The position numbers were made by a program, and so were the translations under genes. From IMG/VR virus record IMGVR_UViG_3300032092_000122, positions 1 through 35,047 of that record: 35,047 nt of DNA; one strand, 5' to 3'. Of the stretch, positions 8,286 to 30,430 are shown in pieces. Source of the stretch: a virus. The notes beneath the pieces were generated by a model. That model did no database searches. It worked only from the letters and a program-made list of their open reading frames with translations, and had not been told where the DNA came from. The first letter of the stretch is position 1, and each line of letters begins with the position of its first letter.

Positions 8286-8726
8286 TTAGAAGGAGCTGCG
8301 CCACCGAACTTGAACGTGCAAACTACCCGCGACTCCTGAGAAATGACCGCTCGCCAAGATCCACAATCCCGATGGGGCCACCAACATATTGTGAGCCGTA
8401 TTGACCGTAAAGCCTGCGGTCACACCTGTCTCAACCCTCATGGGATACGTTCCAGAAGTTGTGAAAGCCACCTCTGACGTCAGATCTTGTTGTCCAGTAA
8501 CAGGGGTCCCATAGTTTGGAACCGCAAACAATGGTACCTTCACCAGCTTTACGTTGATATTCTGGTTGACCGAGTCTTCCAGAAAGATCGCCGCAGAATC
8601 CACCACCAGATTCCGATCCGTAAAGAACAACGGATAGTGCGAATGCTTGGGTTCATGGGCTGTCCAGCTTGTGAACTGGAAATCCCCAGGGTAGTACCGG
8701 GTTTGCAAAGGAATCTGTCCCGGCAC
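8286..8726 (-). CDS. Small structural-type protein, paralogue of its neighbour
   Basis: The 146-residue product starts at a GTG with GGAGGG four bases upstream. It is beta-rich, with no Cys and no membrane segment. It shares with the upstream gene (8738-9232) the opening MPGQI-L-x3-YYP-DF, the middle (L)VVDSxxxF, and the ending RWRS, and so is a divergent tandem duplicate. Position at the distal end of the virion genes suggests a head-decoration, fibre-attachment or similar minor structural role, but no known family is recognised. Confidence 0.7.
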   Translation of the reverse strand: MPGQIPLQTRYYPGDFQFTSWTAHEPKHSHYPLFFTDRNLVVDSAAIFLEDSVNQNINVKLVKVPLFAVPNYGTPVTGQQDLTSEVAFTTSGTYPMRVETGVTAGFTVNTAHNMLVAPSGLWILASGHFSGVAGSLHVQVRWRSSF

Positions 8727-8737
8727 AATCCCTCCAA

Positions 8738-9232
8738 TCAGAGCTGACTACGCCACCGCATACTGATGAACGACCCGGTCGTGTGTGCAACGCTCCACGA
8801 GGAACCAGTAGTGCTTGATGGAACAGTCGCTCGCATCCAAACAGTGGCCCCGGCGGGGATCACGTTCGCAGCGGTCGTACCCGTAGACCGAATCGTAAAG
8901 CTGAACGTCTGCGCCGTGGTCACGGATTCAGCAATGCTAACTACGTCAGTCAGCTGAATCTGGGTCGAAGACGCCGTACCCGTCGGAATTGCCGTGTTCG
9001 TGATCACCCAGAAAGTGAAATCGTGATTATCCGTGTTGTCTCCGTCTCCGTTGCTAAGCTGTTGAGCAGTGAACAACCTCAAAGAGTCGACCACGATCGG
9101 CTTGTCCGCATAGACAACCGGAACATTGATCATGCTTCCACCAGTGGTATTGCAGATCGTTGGGATCAGAACCGTGGTGAGATTGAAGTCCGCAGGGTAG
9201 TACTTGGGGTCGAGAGCGATTTGGCCAGGCAT
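8738..9232 (-). CDS. Small structural-type protein, paralogue of its neighbour
   Basis: The 164-residue product starts at ATG with GAGG seven bases upstream and ends 11 bases before the paralogous gene at 8726. Thr/Ser-rich beta stretches (FTFWVITNTAIPTGT, TFSFTIRSTGTTAANV, GATVWMRATV) resemble jelly-roll or decoration-type folds, though that is inference. It opens MPGQIALDPKYYPADF and ends MRWRSQL, matching the neighbour's termini; the middles have diverged. Function unknown; probably a virion surface component. Confidence 0.7.
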   Translation of the reverse strand: MPGQIALDPKYYPADFNLTTVLIPTICNTTGGSMINVPVVYADKPIVVDSLRLFTAQQLSNGDGDNTDNHDFTFWVITNTAIPTGTASSTQIQLTDVVSIAESVTTAQTFSFTIRSTGTTAANVIPAGATVWMRATVPSSTTGSSWSVAHTTGSFISMRWRSQL

Positions 9233-14280: not shown

Positions 14281-15455
14281 GCCAGAGCTCCAAAGTTAGG
14301 TACTGCAATCTGCCCAATGCCCGGTGTGGTCGCGCCAGCCATGAAGCCGGTCAACCCCGCGAACAAGCTCACGAACTGCCGAGGGTTCTGTTGGATCATT
14401 TGAGCCACGGCTTGACGGCCTTGCATCTCAAACAACACCGACTGGTTCATCGCGGACGCATACGCTTGCTCGCCCATCACCCGAAGGTTTGATCCGAGCT
14501 CTCGCATCTGTTGGTTCATGCGCTGAGCATCCAACGTTTGCGCTCCGAACGAGGTACCCATCTGTCCCCGAAGTTGTCCACCAGCCAGGGTTTGCTGGGA
14601 CTGGCCCATCCGCAGCCCCGCCAGATTGCTACCCATGCTGGCAACTTGTTGGTTCATGTTGCTGTAGATGCCCGTGACCGCCTGGGTCACTTGGTTGCCA
14701 ACGTCCTGAGTCAACTGTTGCTTAAGCGCCGCTTTCTCCGCAGGGCTCGCATCCAGCATGTCGATCTCAGCCATCTGGCTCTTTGCGCTCTGCCTCATGC
14801 CAAACGCCGCATTGGCCGCATCCTGGGCGCCGGTATCCTGAAACTTCGAGATCGTCTGCTCGTAGCCTGAGACCGCCGCAGCAGCTTGTTGATTTGCTGC
14901 CGCAATGTCCTGATCAACCCGGCCCATCTGCTGGTCCCGGAAGCCCTTGAACTCCTCGTAGCCCTGCTGGCCCTGTTGTTCAAGCCCTCCCGCGATCCTG
15001 CCCATGGCATCACGCTGTTGAACCCCCACTGATTGCATGGTGCCGAGGCCACGCTGCAAAGCATTCTCGGTGAGCCCGATCTGCTGCTGATTGGCCCCGT
15101 ACATCTGGTTCATGGCGCCCTGCTGGTTCCGAATGTCGGTACCCATCGCGTTCGCCAGCGCCTGATCCCAGCTCGCAAACTGCTGCTGGGTTCCACCGCG
15201 CTGCTGGGTTGGACGAACCGGGGAACCGTAGTTCGCCGTGATCCCCATCGTTCCACCCGTGCGAGCCTCAAAGTACCGACCTGGTGCTTGACGCTGAGCC
15301 GGTGAGTTCAGCCCGACGTTCTGCACCCCGCCCATTCCGGTGGGGGCTGACCGACGACCCATCTGCCGATCGCGCTGTGATTGGCCACCAAACGGCTGAC
15401 CGAAGTTCGACAGCGACGAAACTGGATCAAAGCCTTGGGTGTTGAATTGGCTCAT
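14277..15455 (-). CDS. Gln/Met/Gly-rich virion-region protein
   Basis: The 392-residue product starts at an ATG overlapping the previous stop (TAATG) with GAGGGAG just upstream. It opens with a disordered Gly/Gln/Arg region (FGQPFGGQSQRDRQMGRRSA), then has helical Gln/Ala/Met segments (QQMGRVDQDIAAANQQAAAA), ending with a small hydrophobic patch (FVSLFAGLTGFMAGATTPGI). Composition fits an internal virion or assembly protein; no family is recognised. One exact dispersed element (15023-15032) encodes Q-S-V-G-V. Confidence 0.65.
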   Translation of the reverse strand: MSQFNTQGFDPVSSLSNFGQPFGGQSQRDRQMGRRSAPTGMGGVQNVGLNSPAQRQAPGRYFEARTGGTMGITANYGSPVRPTQQRGGTQQQFASWDQALANAMGTDIRNQQGAMNQMYGANQQQIGLTENALQRGLGTMQSVGVQQRDAMGRIAGGLEQQGQQGYEEFKGFRDQQMGRVDQDIAAANQQAAAAVSGYEQTISKFQDTGAQDAANAAFGMRQSAKSQMAEIDMLDASPAEKAALKQQLTQDVGNQVTQAVTGIYSNMNQQVASMGSNLAGLRMGQSQQTLAGGQLRGQMGTSFGAQTLDAQRMNQQMRELGSNLRVMGEQAYASAMNQSVLFEMQGRQAVAQMIQQNPRQFVSLFAGLTGFMAGATTPGIGQIAVPNFGALA

Positions 15456-18400
15456 TAGCTCCCTCGAATCTGGGTGGACCGTTCGACCGACGTAATCGCA
15501 CCGCGCACAATACAGCCCATCAATCGGAAGTCGAGATCAGGGCACAGAATCCGGATTCCGGGGGTCAACGTCGTACCCTTGGCACCGTATCTCCCGTCAG
15601 AAGAATCGGTACCAAAGGCTGCATATACCACACCTTCATCGGCTTCTACTGACGAGTACAACGCCCGTGCCGTATCGTACGTTTCCGCTGTGTACGTCGG
15701 GGTTCCTGCAACGCCCGAATACAGCAATCCCGTGAACCGGTCGAGGGGAATGGACGTCAGTCCATCGCTTTTCGCCCCACCAGAGACATCTGAAAACGAA
15801 GCCCCGATGCTTCCGACAACCTTCATCCGGAAGAAGTCCGCATTCGAGAAGGTCATTCCCTGCTCGGTCTCCATCCCCAACGGGTGGCCGGCCCACTCAA
15901 ACACGACCGGGCTCACAACGAACACGTCTCCAGCCGTGGTGTTGTTGACCCACGAGTTGGCACCCGCGTTGTCCACGATCACGTCGTTCGTGTTGTTATA
16001 CATGATCTTGAACTTGCGACCGATGTACGGGGTCATCGCCGCATTCGTAGACCAAACAAGGTAGGCGTACGAGAACCGCCAAGCTCCCGCCGTCACAATC
16101 GTGTTCACGGCGCTGAACGGAATCCGCTTACCAATGTTGTCCCAAGACCCTGTCGCAACAAACCGCGAATCCCCGTCGAAGTCCAACGTCGTGATTCGTC
16201 GCGAGTATTGGTAGGCAGCTGTTGCAAACTGGATCTCTCGCGACTGATAGCAATCGACGGTGTACACCTGCGGACCAGTCCAACTGCTATTACCAGTGCC
16301 CGACGCTCGCGTGTCTTGCCAGTTCAACAAGAAGAACGCTCTTCGACTCAAGCTGTTCGTTGAGCTAACAATGCCACTCGCTTCGATGGGCCACGACCCT
16401 TGAGCCGTCAGCGCAAAGTTGGCATCCGCAACCTTCGTAGTCTTTCCCGTCGAGAACCACAGAACGTACATCTCTTCCTGCGTCGGATTGTGGACGAACA
16501 AGCAGTTCATAAACGGGTCGTGCACAACCTGGAGAACAGACAGATCCGTCTTCCACTCCTTGACCATGACGCTGTTCAAGTTGCGAATCTCGTCAAGCTG
16601 GCCCTGCGCGTCCACACTCTTCAAGCCGTGGCTCGTCACGTAGTAGACCGAGCTGCCCACTGAATCAGCGGCCCGAGGATTCACGATGCCGTAGCCCTCG
16701 TGCATCTCCGTCACTTTGATGTAGGGGCCGCTCTTTCGGATGTGATAGACCTTGTCGCGCGAGAGCCCGATCGCATTCGATCCTGCCCGTCCGAACTTCA
16801 CAACCTCGTTACTTGGAACAGTGGGGGTATACCGATTGAACGGGGGGAACAGCTCCGGCACAAGATCCATCAAGCTGGACCAGCGCATCTCACCCAATCC
16901 ACGAACCGTATCCGAGACTCGTTTCGTCTCCGTTGTTGACTCTGGTGGTGCATCAATCTTGGACACCAACATCGTGTTCTGGTGGAACAGCGCAGTGCCA
17001 CCGAACGGCATCTTCTCATCAAAGACGCTGCGATCGACGTACGCATCCTGATAGACCAACTGCTTGTCTTCCAGCTCGTAGAAGTACATAGCGTGTCGGC
17101 TCGTCGTTGCATCCCCGAACGTACGACCTGTGCCGTTCAAGCAAGTGTGGTAATCCGACAACCGAACAACCGCGTCTAAGAACGGCAACCCTGCGACCAT
17201 TGTGCCGCCGGCATCCTGAATCTTGACGCTTCGGTACACGTACATCAGATCGTACTTGCTGGAGTCGTACACGATCTCGATGCCCACGTACTGATCGTTC
17301 TTCACGCTCAGGTTGTTTCCGCCCTGTGTACGCGCGAGCACGAAGTCTTCGCTGCGAACTTGCGCCACGGTGCTGAACGCGCTCTTGCGACCCGTCTTCG
17401 AGTTCACCAGCACGTATCCGAAGCTGTAGTCACCCGGCTCAAACTTACGAGCTTGATAACGGTTCTCCGTCGTGAACGAACCTACGATGCTCTCATAGAA
17501 GAACCCAGTGCAATCCTCGCGCTTGACAGCCACTTTCCAGTAGTAAGTCTTGCCGTATGCCAACCGAAGATTGGGGAACAACTGCGCTGGCGAATAGTTC
17601 GAGACAGCCAGATCAGTAGCAATGCAGTGATCATCGAGAGCGCCTGTGCCTTCTTCAACCAAGTACACGTCCCATCGGACGTTCGCATTCAACGCTTCCC
17701 CGTCTGGGTAATACGAAGTCCAGTCCAACTTCGGGGTCACGCTCACATTGGTCTGCTTGTTCGCAGGCGTCAACAACTGCGTCAGAATCCCGACCCCATC
17801 TGTGCAAGCACTTCCAGTTGCGCTGTGCGAATTAGCGGTACCTGGTTGCGAAACAGCCCCAGCGGCCGGCACAGTGTCGTTGTAGCAGATGCCCGACGCC
17901 TCATTCGGAAACAGGTTCGAACTCGTGTACGGGTTCTCCGCCAACAGCACAACCTGCGCGGACGCCGGTCGTCCCGTCTCCAACGTCGTAAACGACCCAG
18001 GCGCAATCCCACGTTCGGGGCTCGACAACGATGGCTGCATCCCTGGGCCCGGAATCGTACCTGTGCCCGTGGATCCAATAACTGTCGGCGTCAAGAACGT
18101 CTTGTTGGTGTACGTGACCGTCAACTTCGGACGGATCCCGTAGTTCGGCTGGGTCCGTCCCGCAAACGAAATCAGATTACCTGCCGTGCTTCCGCGCACA
18201 ATCACGTCGGTCTTTCTGGTGAACGACTGTGACAACCCGCTTACTGCGCGTTGCACAATGTTCGTCGCCGTCAGCTGAACCTTGCCCAGATAGTTCTTCA
18301 GCAGCGTCGTGGAGATCTGGTGGGCGGCCTCGTACGTCCCACCTGGCGTACCCCACGGGGCCGAGGTCGTGCGGTTGTTCCACGTGACCTGCGCCTCATT

Positions 18401-19153
18401 CCAAAGTACTCCCGTCAGAGAAGAATCGTCCACCGGGGCCACGAACAACGTACCTGAAGCACCCGTCAGCGCATTGCCCGTGACGGTGAACTCCAACACC
18501 GCAGACTCAACAGTCTTTCCGGTCTCAGCCGAAGTATCAAACCGTAGCAGGGTATTCTTGGTGGTACCCCCACTGATTACTTCGAGTGTCAGGGGTTGGG
18601 TGCTTTCGTAGTTGGTAGTTGCTGCGGCGCTGTTGATGAAAGCGTCTACCTCGCAGGCGTACTCCTTCGTGCGCGTAGCCTCAATGTAGAACAGAGACGG
18701 ACTGCGCCCCTCAAGGAAGCAGTACACGAAACGGCCTGCAACTTGCACATCGAACTGGCCCGTCACTGGAGCCGCATCCATCAACTTCACGCAACGGGTG
18801 AAGCTCTGATTGACCGAGTCCCAGTAGTCGATGAAGACATCCGATACAGTGGGGGTTGCCGGCCTCACTGCCCGATACACGAACCCGTAGGCGTACTCTT
18901 CGGATCCGATCCGGAAGTCCACCGCCTTAAAGTCCACGATCACGGACTTGTGCGTGTGGTTGGTTTGGTTCTGAAGCTCGGTGATCGTGTACGCCAGCTT
19001 GAAGCCAGGGAACGGTCGGAGGCCACCCTCACTGGAACCGTCGACGCCTGTCATCTCCGAGGAGAAACCCCGTTGAACACCTGGGCGCTCAACGCGCTTA
19101 TCCAACGTCGTCTCCATCACAGGGTATGACCAGTCAGTCTTGAGATCAGCCAC
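15455..19153 (-). CDS. Large tail/hub protein with DNRLRE (CBM96-like) and FN3-like domains
   Basis: The 1232-residue product begins at GTG after GAGGTGAACC. The N-terminus (to ~165) is beta-rich. Residues ~170-350 match the DNRLRE/CBM96 pattern: NYESTQPLTLEV, TLLRFDTS, VESAVLEFTV, then W-N-E-x-Q-V-T-W-N-N and a closing PKLTVTYTN; related domains bind polysaccharide or stabilise surface proteins. Residues ~460-563 resemble fibronectin type III (LAYGKTYYWKVAVK ending VGSFTTEN). The C-terminal half has propeller-like beta motifs (LSRDKVYHIRKSG, SVYYVTSHGLKSV), as in short-tail nozzle or hub proteins. Position after the adaptor-like gene agrees with a tail component. Four dispersed or near-match elements touch this region (16818, 18567, 18846). 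Confidence 0.75.
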   Translation of the reverse strand: MADLKTDWSYPVMETTLDKRVERPGVQRGFSSEMTGVDGSSEGGLRPFPGFKLAYTITELQNQTNHTHKSVIVDFKAVDFRIGSEEYAYGFVYRAVRPATPTVSDVFIDYWDSVNQSFTRCVKLMDAAPVTGQFDVQVAGRFVYCFLEGRSPSLFYIEATRTKEYACEVDAFINSAAATTNYESTQPLTLEVISGGTTKNTLLRFDTSAETGKTVESAVLEFTVTGNALTGASGTLFVAPVDDSSLTGVLWNEAQVTWNNRTTSAPWGTPGGTYEAAHQISTTLLKNYLGKVQLTATNIVQRAVSGLSQSFTRKTDVIVRGSTAGNLISFAGRTQPNYGIRPKLTVTYTNKTFLTPTVIGSTGTGTIPGPGMQPSLSSPERGIAPGSFTTLETGRPASAQVVLLAENPYTSSNLFPNEASGICYNDTVPAAGAVSQPGTANSHSATGSACTDGVGILTQLLTPANKQTNVSVTPKLDWTSYYPDGEALNANVRWDVYLVEEGTGALDDHCIATDLAVSNYSPAQLFPNLRLAYGKTYYWKVAVKREDCTGFFYESIVGSFTTENRYQARKFEPGDYSFGYVLVNSKTGRKSAFSTVAQVRSEDFVLARTQGGNNLSVKNDQYVGIEIVYDSSKYDLMYVYRSVKIQDAGGTMVAGLPFLDAVVRLSDYHTCLNGTGRTFGDATTSRHAMYFYELEDKQLVYQDAYVDRSVFDEKMPFGGTALFHQNTMLVSKIDAPPESTTETKRVSDTVRGLGEMRWSSLMDLVPELFPPFNRYTPTVPSNEVVKFGRAGSNAIGLSRDKVYHIRKSGPYIKVTEMHEGYGIVNPRAADSVGSSVYYVTSHGLKSVDAQGQLDEIRNLNSVMVKEWKTDLSVLQVVHDPFMNCLFVHNPTQEEMYVLWFSTGKTTKVADANFALTAQGSWPIEASGIVSSTNSLSRRAFFLLNWQDTRASGTGNSSWTGPQVYTVDCYQSREIQFATAAYQYSRRITTLDFDGDSRFVATGSWDNIGKRIPFSAVNTIVTAGAWRFSYAYLVWSTNAAMTPYIGRKFKIMYNNTNDVIVDNAGANSWVNNTTAGDVFVVSPVVFEWAGHPLGMETEQGMTFSNADFFRMKVVGSIGASFSDVSGGAKSDGLTSIPLDRFTGLLYSGVAGTPTYTAETYDTARALYSSVEADEGVVYAAFGTDSSDGRYGAKGTTLTPGIRILCPDLDFRLMGCIVRGAITSVERSTQIRGS

Positions 19154-19156
19154 GGT

Positions 19157-19654
19157 TCACCTCGGCTTCTGCGGTAACGGGACTCTCTTTGCGGACAAAC
19201 TACCCCATGCTTGAATGGGGCACTTGGCTTCAGGCATTGTCGCTTTTACGGTCAACTCTGCACGGGCTCTTTGACCACAGCCGCAGGCACCGCACCAACC
19301 AAGTTTTCCTTCTTCGGTTGACCTCTGAAGTTTCGGGCACCCATTGCAGATCTCCAGCCGATCCTGATACTCGGCATCTGGAACCGGCCCCTGAATCGCT
19401 CGGCTGATTTCGGCCTTGGCCCAGCTCAAAGCTTTCGACACCAAGCTCGGAGTCTTCGGCACCATCGCCTTCAACTCTTCTGCCCGAGCCTCCTGCTTCG
19501 CTTTCTGAAACCTCTCGACCTTCTCTTCAATGGGTGGCAGGTTCAACGGCACCAGTCGGCGCATCGAGCATGAACCACACCGCTCCGGAAACGCAGGCGT
19601 TCGCCCGATCCGAGGGTGCTGGCACGTTCCTTCTTTGTCCCAGAAGCAAGTCAT
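19157..19654 (-). CDS. Cysteine-motif (zinc-ribbon-like) small protein
   Basis: Start at 19654, where ATGA overlaps the preceding stop. The 165-residue product opens MTCFWDKEGTCQHPRIGR and has a first cysteine set (C3, C11, then C-G-S-C) and a C-terminal set CNGCPKL-x10-W-C-G-A-C-G-C-x15-C-P-I-Q-x-W. The latter matches the short zinc-knuckle segment often found in phage structural regions (DUF6171-like by memory; not verified). A Lys/Glu/Ala helix links the two. It lies between two tail-region genes and may be an assembly chaperone or minor virion protein; metal binding is inferred from spacing. Confidence 0.65.
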   Translation of the reverse strand: MTCFWDKEGTCQHPRIGRTPAFPERCGSCSMRRLVPLNLPPIEEKVERFQKAKQEARAEELKAMVPKTPSLVSKALSWAKAEISRAIQGPVPDAEYQDRLEICNGCPKLQRSTEEGKLGWCGACGCGQRARAELTVKATMPEAKCPIQAWGSLSAKRVPLPQKPR

Positions 19655-21195
19655 ATGATCTCGAACCCCCACTCGATTGTGTGGGTCGTCACCCCAAACA
19701 CCGTCGGGAACTCCGAACAAACCCCTTCACTACCATCACAAAAAGCTTCCAAGATGTTCACAGTCACAGGTCCTGAGGGGGTGGAGTACGTACAAGGCAC
19801 AGTTTCCGTGTGAGCCAAAGCACGGCTGGTGCAACAATCAGGATAACTCTTACCGGAAGTTGAGTCGTTGATGTCGTAAGCGACCTTCTTCTCGGTGTAT
19901 GTGCGGTCCAACGGGCTGCAGTACTGATCGATGCCACACATGTTCAACAGCAACCCTTGGAATATCCCTCCAACAGGTGGCGCTCCAGGAACACCTGAAA
20001 GACTGCTTGGCGGTTCCAAGTTTGTTTGAGGTCCTCCCCCATAGCGGACAGACGGCAAGTCGTCGCTACAGGTGTTGATCGGGTTTGGGCAAGTTGTTGC
20101 AGGTTTCGAGGTGATCGGGCTGTCAAAGGTTGTGTCACTCAAACACGATCCAGATCCAAAGATGACCCACGGATTGATTAGAGGTAGGTTCATAGCGTAC
20201 GACGTTTGACAATCAGTCGTAGGCGCTTGGCAACCCATGGTGGCACAAGGGCTCATACAAAAGTCTTCGGTGTACATACCCGAAACAACTTGTGAAGGGT
20301 TTGGATTAAAGATCAAGATCGGACTATCACAATCCGGATCGCAGTTCCGTTTGCAAGCAATCGTTATGACCGATCCTGGGACCCAAAGGTTTTGATGGTT
20401 GGGCCTGTTTGGCTCAAGACCGTTATCCAACCCCGTGTTGGTCAGTTGCCCAGCGATATATTGGGCGGGACGTCCTTGAAGCGTGGCGTTCCAAACCCAA
20501 GTCTTCTCCCGAATGATCTTTGCTTCAATGTCCGCAGCAGCCTTGTGCCCGTAGCCTGCACAAGCGCCCGCATCTGCGTACCCACTTGAGTAGCTTTTGC
20601 AGTTCCACGATCTGCATTGATGCCGAGCACTACTAGAGTTCTCGCAGGTGTACCCAGAGTTGTCTCGGCAGAAATTGTTGAATGTGCAAGCACATCGACC
20701 TGTTGCCGCAATAGTTGGTGATCCCGCACAAGGGCAAGCGGAGCGGTCACATTCGTTGTTGTATTGCCCGTGAAACTCAAGCCCAGACCCTGTTCCATCG
20801 GTCGTAACACCTTCGTAGAAGCCGTCGCCGTCGAGGTCGTAACGGTTCCAAACAGTACAACGCCCCGACACTCCGCCCACGGCTGCGGAGCCGTCATCTT
20901 CTAGACCCATGAAGTCGATGTGGCGTTTGATGTATTCGTAGGAGAAGGTGCAGGTATTTGCGTAGTACCGGTAGGTGGCGCAATCAGTACCGGTGCGTTG
21001 AAGCGTGGCGGTAATGGACCAGCTGATTTGGCCAGTCGTAAAGACTTGGCCCGAGGGGCTCAAAGTTTCTTCGGAGATCCAGCTACCAGTGAGCAAGATT
21101 GTGAATGGACTTGATGGACTGCAGGCCCAGAAGTCACAACAGGCTGGGCAAGATTCTTTTGTGCAGCAACAACCTGAAGAGACCGCGCCACTCAT
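19651..21195 (-). CDS. Cysteine-rich virion-region protein with calcium-loop motif
   Basis: The 514-residue product contains 37 Cys by my count (about 7%), beginning MSGAVSSGCCCTKESCPACC. The cysteines are spread in small Gly/Asn/Ser-rich clusters (CPCAGSP, CACTFNNFC, CKRNCDPDCDSP, CMSPCATMGC). DLDGDGFYEG near residue 120 is a D-x-D-x-D-G calcium-binding loop as in EF-hand/dockerin-type sites. There is no signal peptide. It starts at ATGA overlapping the previous stop. Placement between adaptor-like and tail proteins suggests a tail spike or fibre stabilised by disulfides or metal after release from the cell; this is inference. No homologue is recognised. Confidence 0.7.
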   Translation of the reverse strand: MSGAVSSGCCCTKESCPACCDFWACSPSSPFTILLTGSWISEETLSPSGQVFTTGQISWSITATLQRTGTDCATYRYYANTCTFSYEYIKRHIDFMGLEDDGSAAVGGVSGRCTVWNRYDLDGDGFYEGVTTDGTGSGLEFHGQYNNECDRSACPCAGSPTIAATGRCACTFNNFCRDNSGYTCENSSSARHQCRSWNCKSYSSGYADAGACAGYGHKAAADIEAKIIREKTWVWNATLQGRPAQYIAGQLTNTGLDNGLEPNRPNHQNLWVPGSVITIACKRNCDPDCDSPILIFNPNPSQVVSGMYTEDFCMSPCATMGCQAPTTDCQTSYAMNLPLINPWVIFGSGSCLSDTTFDSPITSKPATTCPNPINTCSDDLPSVRYGGGPQTNLEPPSSLSGVPGAPPVGGIFQGLLLNMCGIDQYCSPLDRTYTEKKVAYDINDSTSGKSYPDCCTSRALAHTETVPCTYSTPSGPVTVNILEAFCDGSEGVCSEFPTVFGVTTHTIEWGFEII

Positions 21196-21983
21196 GAGCA
21201 GTTCACCTGTAGTGGGTTGACCATGTGGAACCAGTGAGCTCCTGCTTCATCGATGAACATAGGCACCCGCGCACCCACGGGGATCGAAAGCCTCGTCAAC
21301 GTAGAACCAGTGGGGGGTGTATTACCACCATTGTTGGCAACACTATACTCATGTTCGTTTATGGCAAGCCCACCTGCTGCACTTGTTCGAGGATTTGTGC
21401 GAGCAGTAACTTCAGTCCAACCGTACAAGTAATACGACGATCCGATCGGGGACGTATACGAGGTGCTGACCGAAGTGATCTCTGCTTTAAAGGTTGTGTG
21501 GGATGGACCAAAGCCACAGTCACAACCAGAGCTTTCAAGTCCTCCACCACCAACAGAACCACAGCCATCAACCAAGCACTCGTCGATACCCAAGAACAAG
21601 CCGTTGGGGTCTTGAAGACAACGACCGGAGACACAGGAGTACCGCAGTTTCTCCTCTGGGCCCACCGGCGGAACAGAGCCTGGGTTCGCGGTTGGAGAGA
21701 TGGCGGTCGTTGCAGGATTGCCGACGACGTTGAAGAACGCGAACGACGTGTCCCCAAAGCCGTTGCCGCCAGGCATGAAGAACTGCGCAGGCAACGACGG
21801 ACCCGTTTGATTCGGGGCAGAACCAGGCGCAGAGTAACTGGTGGGGTCTACGAACTTAAGGCCAGGAGCCAACGTGACAATCTGAAACCCGCTCGTCATG
21901 CGTTGCGTGAACGCTTGCGAGAACACAGGGAGAATCTGCTCGAACTCCCGGTTGGCGGTGTTGAGAAGTTCGTCGTTGTTCAT
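21192..21983 (-). CDS. Virion-region protein with small disulfide-type Cys module
   Basis: The 263-residue product begins MNNDELLNTANREFEQILPV at a TGATG overlap. Its centre holds YSCVSGRCLQDPNGLF followed by IDECLVDGC, a C-x-x-x-x-C ... C-x-x-x-C mini-module that I recall from other phage and environmental bacterial structural proteins, probably disulfide-held; then SSGCDCGFG. The flanks are Gly/Pro/Ser/Thr-rich and beta-type (SYYLYGWTEVTART). It directly precedes the cysteine-rich 514-residue gene and probably works with it in the same tail or fibre structure. An imperfect dispersed element (21307-21316) encodes T-P-P-T-G. Confidence 0.65.
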   Translation of the reverse strand: MNNDELLNTANREFEQILPVFSQAFTQRMTSGFQIVTLAPGLKFVDPTSYSAPGSAPNQTGPSLPAQFFMPGGNGFGDTSFAFFNVVGNPATTAISPTANPGSVPPVGPEEKLRYSCVSGRCLQDPNGLFLGIDECLVDGCGSVGGGGLESSGCDCGFGPSHTTFKAEITSVSTSYTSPIGSSYYLYGWTEVTARTNPRTSAAGGLAINEHEYSVANNGGNTPPTGSTLTRLSIPVGARVPMFIDEAGAHWFHMVNPLQVNCS

Positions 21984-22867
21984 CAGAACACGAAGAGGTT
22001 CATGTTGTCCACGGTACCCCCACTGAATCGCTTTCCAGTGCGGGAGTTCATGTTGCCCAAGGTGTCATGCGCGGTCTTGATGGCTTGGCGGTACGCGAAC
22101 GCCAATGATTGCTGTTGGCCCTGCGAGATCTTTCGACCAACGCCAGCCCGCATCGCCGCGCTCAACGAGACTGCATCAACCATCGGCTCCATCACGAACG
22201 GAACGACCTCGTAGCTGTAAGAGCCTGCCGCGTTCGTGGCAGGAGTCCGCAGCGTGGCCACTCGGGTGGTCGCGTTGTACGCCGAGATCGTGCATTCGTC
22301 CGTGACATTGGCCCCAAAGATCCGCAAGTAGCAGCCCACGTAGGCGTTCTCACGTTTATCGAGGGAGCCCAAGAAGCCAGTAGATGGCAACGTGAATGTC
22401 CCGTTCGCATTCAAAGTTCCTGTCGTTCCGGAGACGTAGTGAGCGGCGACGTCACCTGACGGAACGTACAAGATGGTGTACGTCTTGGCCTCGGTCGGGT
22501 AGGGCTTGAACGAGATCAGGTTGCCCTCGATCGACCAGCCTGGGCCGTACACGTTGAACTCGCTACGGGGGTGGAAGTCCTCGATGAACACGCCCGTTGA
22601 CGCATTGACGATGCCCACCCGAAGAACCTGGCGCACCATCGGGGGCAACCGGTAGTACTGGGTGTTCGCGGCAACCGTGACCGTCAGCGGAACCACGACC
22701 TGTGCGTCTGACATCATGGAGACCCGCGAGACCACGTCGGTCATCGCGCTCGACATGAAGAACCGCACCAAGTAGTTATCGTCGTACTTCGCGTCCAGAT
22801 CCGGATCATCCAAGTAGTGGCGAACCTTCTCGCAGTACGTCTTGATGATGGATCCGGTTGAGTGCAT
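21983..22867 (-). CDS. Adaptor / tail-tubular-A-like protein
   Basis: The 294-residue product starts three bases after the upstream stop. It opens with a helical segment (YCEKVRHYLDDPDLDAKYDD, LVRFFMSSAMTDVVSRV) and continues with beta motifs such as QYYRLPPMVRQVLRVGI and LISFKPYPTEAKTYTILYV. This arrangement and position between the capsid and tail genes are usual for the connector-adaptor (gp11-like) of short-tailed phages, which joins portal and tail. The C-terminal helix RAGVGRKISQGQQQSLAFAY is also typical. Assignment is by pattern and synteny. An exact dispersed element lies at 22017-22026. Confidence 0.55.
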   Translation of the reverse strand: MHSTGSIIKTYCEKVRHYLDDPDLDAKYDDNYLVRFFMSSAMTDVVSRVSMMSDAQVVVPLTVTVAANTQYYRLPPMVRQVLRVGIVNASTGVFIEDFHPRSEFNVYGPGWSIEGNLISFKPYPTEAKTYTILYVPSGDVAAHYVSGTTGTLNANGTFTLPSTGFLGSLDKRENAYVGCYLRIFGANVTDECTISAYNATTRVATLRTPATNAAGSYSYEVVPFVMEPMVDAVSLSAAMRAGVGRKISQGQQQSLAFAYRQAIKTAHDTLGNMNSRTGKRFSGGTVDNMNLFVF

Positions 22868-28465: not shown

Positions 28466-30430
28466 TCAGATCTTGGAGCGCCCGTTCGGTCGTGGATCTG
28501 GGGTTCGTGCATCGAGGATCTCGTTGATTTGGCTTGCGGACAACTGGTTGATGTCGAGACCTTCGCCGATGTGGACTCCGCTCTCTACGAAGTCGCCGTC
28601 GCGAAGACGCTCGAACAAGGTTTTCTGGGCTGCAGCTGGTCCCGCCTTCGAAAGCCGGCCTTTCAGGATGAACTGGGACATGGCGACCGCATCCAAGCAG
28701 TCGTCCTTCTCCAATCCGCCGTCTTGGGCTTCGGGGTTGAACGACTCGATCTGGTCGAAGAGGTGACGCCACGGCAACTGGTCACGTCGCCACAGCGGCA
28801 ACTTGATCTTGCCGTGCTCGAAGCGGAACTGGAGACCGGCGATCTTGTCCTGCTTCTCCGAGATGCCCGGGTTCAGTTTGACGATCTTTGGCAAGTGCTC
28901 GACGCCAGCCATGTCGTTGGCGCGGGTCGAAACGATCGAGGAGAGCGCGTTGTAGAGTGAGACGCCCTGACGAATCGATTCCGGATGAACTGTCGGACAT
29001 TTCCAGCGATCGGCCATCTCGAAGATCCCGCGCACCAACTCGGACTCTTGGCCCTGACGAGCCCAGAGGTCGAGGACGAACAGGTCGTTTTGAGGTGACA
29101 CGGCCATCAAGCAGCAGACCTTAAAGTCCGAGTCCTTGCCGGACGTGTGCGAAGTATCGGCGGTGATGAACGTGCGGACGTAGCTGCGGAGGAAGTCAGG
29201 CAACGGCATCCGCTGAAGGCTGAGCTCGTCGCCGCGACGCTCATGCCAGCAGATGTACGTGGTCGTGGAGAGCGGTTGGTCGAGACGGTCGTCGATCTCC
29301 TCGAACCACCAGCCGTGCTTCACGTCATCGAGGTCCCCGAAGAACGCGCCTTCGCCGTCGCCAGGGGACGCCAAGTACTCCGAGGCAAAGTTGGCGGACC
29401 CGATCGTTTCACGGATCTCCTCCAGCGAAAGAGCCTCCTTGAATCGTGGGCGCGTAACTGCTAGTTTCATGCGCTCTTCACGAGTCGTTGGCCACATGTC
29501 TGGCCAGCATGACATCATGGAGCCGTTCTCTTCAATAGCCGCAGGGATCACGAGACGAGACCACCGATTGAATCGGGGATCCTTCGCCCGTTGTCCTTCC
29601 GGCGTGTCATCCAACTGCATTGCGTGCCACAGATAATGGCGTTTCGACACGAACGTACCGACCCAATCGACTCCTGTATCTGGGCGCGTGACCATCGGGA
29701 TCACGATCTTGAACAGCAGTTCCGACATGTACGCCCGAAGCACCGACATTGGCGTCGAGCTTTTCGGATCGTACTCAGGGTCGTCAAGACGGTATCGACG
29801 TGGACGGCCACCACGCTGCTTCGATGACGCGCTCAAAAGCCGCAGCCACGACCCATTGTTCAAGATCATGTGCTCGGTGCTGAACGAGCCTTCGCCACGA
29901 CGGGGCACGATTCGATTGCCGTCGTACTCCGGCGAGAAGTCGTCGTTGATCCGCTGGTTGTGGATCAGCTGGCGCTTGATGCGCTCGCCGACCTCACGCG
30001 CGTTCGGGTGCGTGGACGTTGCATAAACGAATGAATATGCAGGCCGCGTAATCAACCGGAGCAGCATGTCCTTGCAGTTCAGGTACGACTTCGCAGAACC
30101 ACGAGGCGCAACCGCCGCCGTCAACCTGTACGAAGCCCACTGCCGCAGCAGGACCCAGTGAAAGTCCGGCGTCTCCAGCGGCGTGTCGTCGTAGAACAGC
30201 GGATTGAAATCAGCTTCGTCGTCAGGCCACAAGTAATACCGATCGAACCACCACACCGAAGCCACAAGATTGTTGCCTCGGGTCTCTAGGTTCTCTTCGG
30301 GAATCAACCACTGACGACAAGCGTTCACTCGCGCCATCCGCTGACCATCTTCGGTCAGATCGTCGTAGTCTGCCGGAAGCGGATAATTTGGATTGCCATC
30401 CTCACGACTTTGGATCTTCTTGATTTCCAT
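28466..30430 (-). CDS. Terminase large subunit (packaging ATPase-nuclease)
   Basis: The 654-residue product has a Walker A variant APRGSAKS (residues 108-115), a Walker B region YRLDDPEYD (213-221), and an RNase H-type nuclease domain with ITADTS (Asp425), a middle acid near HPES (Glu484) and the closing D-D-C-L-D helix (576-580, EKDDCLDAVAMSQF). It pumps DNA into the prohead through the portal and cuts concatemers. It starts at a TGATG overlap with the upstream gene. Length and two-domain order are normal for the family. In the Walker B region the usual D-E is replaced by D-D-P-E, so the catalytic acid should be checked by alignment. Confidence 0.9.
   Translation of the reverse strand: MEIKKIQSREDGNPNYPLPADYDDLTEDGQRMARVNACRQWLIPEENLETRGNNLVASVWWFDRYYLWPDDEADFNPLFYDDTPLETPDFHWVLLRQWASYRLTAAVAPRGSAKSYLNCKDMLLRLITRPAYSFVYATSTHPNAREVGERIKRQLIHNQRINDDFSPEYDGNRIVPRRGEGSFSTEHMILNNGSWLRLLSASSKQRGGRPRRYRLDDPEYDPKSSTPMSVLRAYMSELLFKIVIPMVTRPDTGVDWVGTFVSKRHYLWHAMQLDDTPEGQRAKDPRFNRWSRLVIPAAIEENGSMMSCWPDMWPTTREERMKLAVTRPRFKEALSLEEIRETIGSANFASEYLASPGDGEGAFFGDLDDVKHGWWFEEIDDRLDQPLSTTTYICWHERRGDELSLQRMPLPDFLRSYVRTFITADTSHTSGKDSDFKVCCLMAVSPQNDLFVLDLWARQGQESELVRGIFEMADRWKCPTVHPESIRQGVSLYNALSSIVSTRANDMAGVEHLPKIVKLNPGISEKQDKIAGLQFRFEHGKIKLPLWRRDQLPWRHLFDQIESFNPEAQDGGLEKDDCLDAVAMSQFILKGRLSKAGPAAAQKTLFERLRDGDFVESGVHIGEGLDINQLSASQINEILDARTPDPRPNGRSKI

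Follow-up and report, generated by a model that had tools for sequence, protein, structure and literature searches.

What is a protein with 37 cysteines doing among the head and tail genes of a phage? Phage structural proteins are made in a reducing environment, the cytoplasm, and usually contain little cysteine. The protein family examined here reaches 5–9% cysteine in precisely the part that relatives exchange and that is probably host-facing, which raises the questions of how such a protein is folded and why disulfides would aid attachment. Our analysis points to three adjacent genes that probably form an exchangeable host-recognition module, in which a 514-residue protein, most likely a tail adhesin held by disulfides, would be accompanied by a zinc-ribbon-like partner.

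Genome context

The window, meaning the whole stretch of 35,047 bases that was analysed, is the entire IMG/VR record. It is most likely a fragment of a larger phage genome, because four relatives with the same terminase sit on contigs of 52.8–54.1 kb. The phage is uncultured and of the short-tailed (podophage-like) type. Genes on the minus strand follow the order terminase, portal, scaffold-like, major capsid, a 199-residue gene, adaptor, a 263-residue gene, the cysteine-rich gene, the zinc-ribbon gene and a 1,232-residue gene, where portal, scaffold, capsid and nozzle were named from position and size (Table 1). Several cysteine-free proteins that resemble internal virion proteins come after the 1,232-residue gene. 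Searches of 50,697 phage records with the terminase, capsid, nozzle-like (1,232-residue) and cysteine-rich proteins gave no match, and these records thus hold no known cultured relative. Among 84,980 genomes of bacteria and archaea, alignments of the capsid and nozzle-like proteins gave no relatives, in scans seeded by short exact peptides and of limited sensitivity, and neither Rfam families nor tRNAs were found in the window.

The 1,232-residue protein shows no sequence relation to solved nozzles of the T7 gp12 kind, and only DNRLRE/alginate-lyase-type chains match it (residues 163–319). A CBM96/DNRLRE-like domain lies at about residues 164–319 (Pfam E 4.2e-10; PDB 8wab E 2e-5) and is possibly a second carbohydrate-facing element. 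Elsewhere in the window, positions 8286–9232 encode what are apparently tandem paralogues of 146 and 164 residues with similar starts, PGQIPLQTRYYPGDFQ and PGQIALDPKYYPADFN.

Table 1. Features of the module and its surroundings (window positions).
Feature	Position	Strand	Remarks
Terminase	28466–30430	-	phrog_38
Adaptor-like (head-tail connector) protein, left module flank	21983–22867	-	Pfam SU10_adaptor, 28.5 bits against a cut-off of 27
263-residue protein	21192–21983	-	Conserved N-terminal part; mini-disulfide module at about 105–160; C-terminal beta domain (164–263) within the exchanged block
N-terminal tag MSGAVSSGCCC	21163–21195	-	Form common to all body types
514-residue cysteine-rich protein, type A body; proposed adhesin/receptor-binding protein	19651–21195	-	37 Cys; CCC at residues 9–11; DxDxDG at 120–125
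165-residue zinc-ribbon-like protein; proposed cognate assembly partner	19157–19654	-	N-domain C-x7-C-x-H ... C-x2-C; C-terminal ribbon phrog_13558
1,232-residue conserved protein, right module flank	15455–19153	-	Nozzle-like from position and size only
Exchanged block	19164–21474	-	No detectable DNA similarity to L003; flanks 94.3% and 96.8%

A protein built around conserved cysteines

Cysteine accounts for 7.2% of the 514-residue protein, against 0.63% in the other proteins of the window (60 of 9,515 residues), and the binomial chance of at least 37 cysteines at this background rate is about 8e-27. The capsid protein contains two. Nine homologues are 27–56% identical to the window copy, and cysteine occupies 21 of the 38 invariant columns of this comparison, with 21 cysteines kept without exception. 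Nothing suggests a chance open reading frame, and the earlier note's description of a 514-residue protein with 37 cysteines is borne out. No relative of the protein was found in Pfam, PHROG, PDB or cultured phages, and searches with it and with the module revealed no homology to receptor-binding proteins, chaperones or structural proteins already known. Judged by its sequence, it is outside every described protein family.

The AlphaFold model is of modest confidence (pLDDT 58, pTM 0.64), and its Foldseek/PDB matches have TM-scores near 0.1 and give no reliable fold. A likeness to outer-membrane barrels (best Foldseek E 4e-4) was rejected as an artefact of long strands, with a TM-score of about 0.12 and an rmsd over 30. 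The D-x-D-x-D-G loop pointed out in the earlier note as a calcium loop is indeed present at residues 120–125 (YDLDGDGFYEG), but among type A proteins it is kept only in L007, the nearest homologue, and thus does not stand as a functional feature or family trait; outside type A, a similar motif is found once in L003 (type B) and once in L025 (type C). The calcium-loop (EF-hand-like) reading was dropped for this lack of conservation.

Block exchange between near-identical phages

The closest relative of the window, L003, shares 97% identity in the nozzle-like protein and 99% in the adaptor protein. At the DNA level, the two are 94.3% identical up to position 21475, similarity is undetectable for about 2.3 kb, and identity returns at 96.8% from position 19163. 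The block between these points contains the C-terminus of the 263-residue protein, the cysteine-rich gene and the zinc gene. Its left break coincides with the edge of the C-terminal beta domain of the 263-residue protein, and its right break with the end of the zinc gene. Within that protein, the left break separates an N-terminal part that is 95% identical between the window and L003 from a C-terminal part that is 39% identical, and comparison with L007 gives the reverse mosaic (66% and 79%, respectively). GC3 is 0.56–0.63 in the cassette and 0.70–0.80 in the flanking genes, and this lower value agrees with import of the block. No match to the module was found in plasmids. As a natural near-identical pair, the window and L003 isolate the effect of the module.

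A constant tag on changing bodies

An open reading frame with a CCC start fills the same slot, after the adaptor-like and 263-residue genes and before the zinc-ribbon and 1,232-residue genes, in all 24 contigs of the set (the window and 23 IMG/VR relatives, which include several near-duplicates and amount to about 17 distinct sequences). The bodies behind this start comprise three unrelated cysteine-rich types, one orphan cysteine-rich body and one glycine-rich body. Type A, found in the window, has 37–48 cysteines or more; full-length copies of type B (L002, L003, L006, L013) have 25–32, type C (L025, L054) has 45–47, and the orphan (L055) has 55. Comparison of the type A and type B profiles yields an alignment limited to the tag (residues 1–13; P 2.5e-5). 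In L023 the tag precedes a glycine-rich body with only 4 cysteines, on a contig that ends inside the gene, and this body has no match in Pfam or PHROG. It brings to mind the glycine-rich adhesins of T4-like phages (the gp38 kind), a likeness that serves as a lead only; unlike those adhesins, the window body is cysteine-rich.

This arrangement would fit a constant tag used for attachment or oligomerisation, followed by a variable body that may contact the receptor. A DNA pattern derived from the CCC tag matched 17 contigs, five of them new, of which four were chance matches and one (L035) was a true member. The tag offers a marker for spotting such putative adhesins in metagenomes.

The zinc-ribbon-like gene, a proposed partner

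The start of the zinc gene is most likely the overlapping ATGA at 19654, which gives 165 residues, and the TTG at 19720 is merely the mechanical start of a 187-residue open reading frame. Overlaps of 1–4 bases join the cysteine-rich, 263-residue and zinc genes and the adaptor gene, and because of these overlaps the four look translationally coupled. The zinc-ribbon protein contains 10 cysteines, and its C-terminal ribbon (C-x2-C ... C-x2-C-G-C ... C-P) matches phrog_13558, a family of unknown function, with E 7.9e-8 over residues 113–172 of the 187-residue frame. The ribbon is common to both, but the window protein has a type-specific Cys/His domain at its N-terminus as well. That the CGC motif has a redox function is no more than a guess.

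In a comparison of 13 phages, the cysteine-rich protein diverges closely in step with the zinc N-domain (partial Mantel r 0.86, p 0.0005, with the 1,232-residue protein controlled for) and also in step with the C-domain of the 263-residue protein (0.69, p 0.0005). The zinc N-domain does not follow the 1,232-residue backbone gene (r 0.11, p 0.18). In L025 and L054, whose backbones are distant, zinc N-domains are 58% identical and the 1,232-residue proteins only 53%. Such co-inheritance is the pattern expected of partners that need a mutual fit, though part of it comes from the physical linkage of neighbouring genes. The suggestion of the earlier note that the small zinc gene assists assembly thus gains indirect support, from this tracking of the cysteine-rich type and from adjacency of the two genes in unrelated phages. 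The zinc-ribbon protein would be the cognate folding or assembly partner of the cysteine-rich protein, and the pair offers a testable candidate folding factor.

The 263-residue protein and its mini-disulfide module

The third gene of the module encodes seven cysteines, at residues 117, 122, 136, 141, 154, 156 and 262, and the pairs 117/122, 136/141 and 154/156 are invariant in 13 homologues. Of the C-x4-C and C-x3-C spacings described earlier, the first pair is as stated and the second is also C-x4-C; the motif given as Y-x-C-x3-G-x-C must be corrected to Y-x-C-x2-G-x-C, itself a C-x4-C. The search for this module in other phages, proposed in the same note, found it in other environmental phage proteins, so it is not special to the 263-residue protein. 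One environmental phage contig (L091) carries a 1,251-residue open frame with 67 cysteines and repeated Y-x-C-x2-G-x-C modules (module match at 2944–2984).

The C-terminal beta domain (164–263) is confidently modelled, and OB-fold/SSB-like matches to it were discarded as too weak. Since this domain is swapped along with the cysteine-rich protein, it is probably in contact with it. An argument from fusion, by which distant relatives would join the N-terminus of the 263-residue protein to a cysteine-rich body, failed, as hmmsearch and hhalign gave nothing above shuffles.

Other backbones and tail context

A scan with the type A profile recovered the cysteine-rich gene, next to a zinc-domain gene, in two further kinds of phage. 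One is HK97-type (L102, L107–L110, L112–L114), with terminase phrog_9, portal phrog_12, capsid phrog_10 and head-tail adaptor/neck families phrog_442 and phrog_5; the other (L100) carries the head-tail adaptor phrog_195 together with a RecT-like gene. The terminase and capsid of the window were not found in either set of contigs, though these are fragments. HK97-type phages keep the zinc N-domain alone, with the C-terminal ribbon replaced, which suggests that the N-domain is the part tied to the cysteine-rich protein.

In L008 and L018, a long-tail-fibre-like gene (phrog_1699) is inserted directly upstream of the cysteine-rich gene. Phages at a greater distance have a positional analogue that is also rich in cysteine, and that of L066 carries a collagen stalk with tail-fibre PHROG matches. 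Tests for homology between these analogues and the window proteins gave nothing above shuffles, so the analogues are tied to the window proteins by position only.

Some relatives carry further genes around the module. Two extra genes of about 370 residues each lie between the adaptor and the 263-residue gene (L004:7770–9995), and neither Pfam nor PHROG matches the L018 versions. Just upstream of a type C cysteine-rich gene lies a Kelch-repeat protein (L025:9488–10915; Pfam Kelch, E 1e-5), and the zinc-gene position of distant relatives holds a protein weakly similar to MptE-like and sialyltransferase-family proteins (L068:4040–4990).

Disulfides or metal

The earlier note had left the choice between disulfides and metal-held folds open, and the cysteine pattern leans slightly towards disulfides. 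CxxC, the usual metal-binding spacing, is not enriched in the cysteine-rich protein (19 seen, 24.5 expected). Three homologues lack both C25 and C351, and one lacks both C19 and C281, a signal of co-loss that amounts to two clade-level events. The total number of cysteines is often odd; therefore at least one is unpaired or joins chains.

It is rather unlikely, though worth weighing, that the protein is a metal-binding virion part, its folds kept together in the reducing cytoplasm by clusters of zinc or iron, with metal supplied by the zinc gene. Cytoplasmic synthesis with no obvious signal peptide, a neighbour that resembles a zinc ribbon and the odd cysteine counts would all agree with this, but the CxxC count and the two disulfide-like joint losses argue against it, as does the precedent of extensive disulfides in virions of phage Milano (PMC10491603).

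Probable host recognition and its alternatives

In the host-recognition module proposed here, whose virion location, disulfides, receptor binding and chaperone role we infer, the 514-residue protein would be a tail-attached adhesin made of small folded units, braced by disulfides that form outside the cell or late in assembly. The host-binding spike imagined in the earlier note gains indirect support from the swap between flanks of 94–97% identity, the fibre genes upstream in relatives and the tag on a glycine-rich body. Such hypervariability would also be in keeping with a different surface protein, for example a head fibre.

The nearest described parallel is in the Alteromonas phages A5 and V22, where related as well as unrelated phages swap a tail fibre together with its cognate chaperone as one block (PMC10579305). 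The window module likewise differs between near-identical flanks and has a co-inherited partner, so a putative receptor-binding gene and its partner are swapped together in both systems. The A5/V22 partner is an established fibre chaperone, whereas our searches found no sequence relation of the window module to known tail fibre or chaperone families, and disulfides are not part of the Alteromonas system (the word is absent from PMC10579305).

A bolder extension, which we offer tentatively, is an adhesin system that is mobile and has no known example in cultured phages. It would combine a constant CCC N-terminus with interchangeable receptor domains built on disulfides, each type having its own zinc/CGC-motif partner to manage cysteine folding, and would move between podophage-like and HK97-type phages.

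The cysteine-rich protein might instead be a structural or decorating protein, such as a head fibre or collar protein, with variation that has nothing to do with host binding and with disulfides that serve only particle robustness. Agrobacterium phage Milano provides the precedent for disulfides in a particle: its virion is disulfide-bonded, its structural proteins contain 2.1–2.4% cysteine, and disulfide networks form its collar and neck proteins (PMC10491603, PMC10811340). Cysteine-enriched virion proteins would be common to both phages, but the proteins are different, and Milano raises cysteine over its structural proteins generally, whereas here enrichment is confined to one swappable module, with 2 cysteines in the capsid and 0.63% outside the module. 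The cysteine-enriched proteins also coincide exactly with the exchanged block, and fibre-like genes adjoin the cysteine-rich gene in relatives, which makes a decorating role improbable.

Least credible by far is a secreted or lysis-associated effector against the host or competitors (superinfection exclusion or bacteriocin-like) with the zinc protein as immunity factor or partner: toxin-immunity pairs would show the same cognate co-inheritance, and the HK97-type and third-backbone pairs adjoin short genes, possibly for lysis, that encode a hydrophobic or lipoprotein-like stretch, but the protein has no evident signal peptide, its bodies (the glycine-rich one included) have only the tag in common, and its gene is embedded with overlapping starts and stops in the head-tail operon of every window-family contig.
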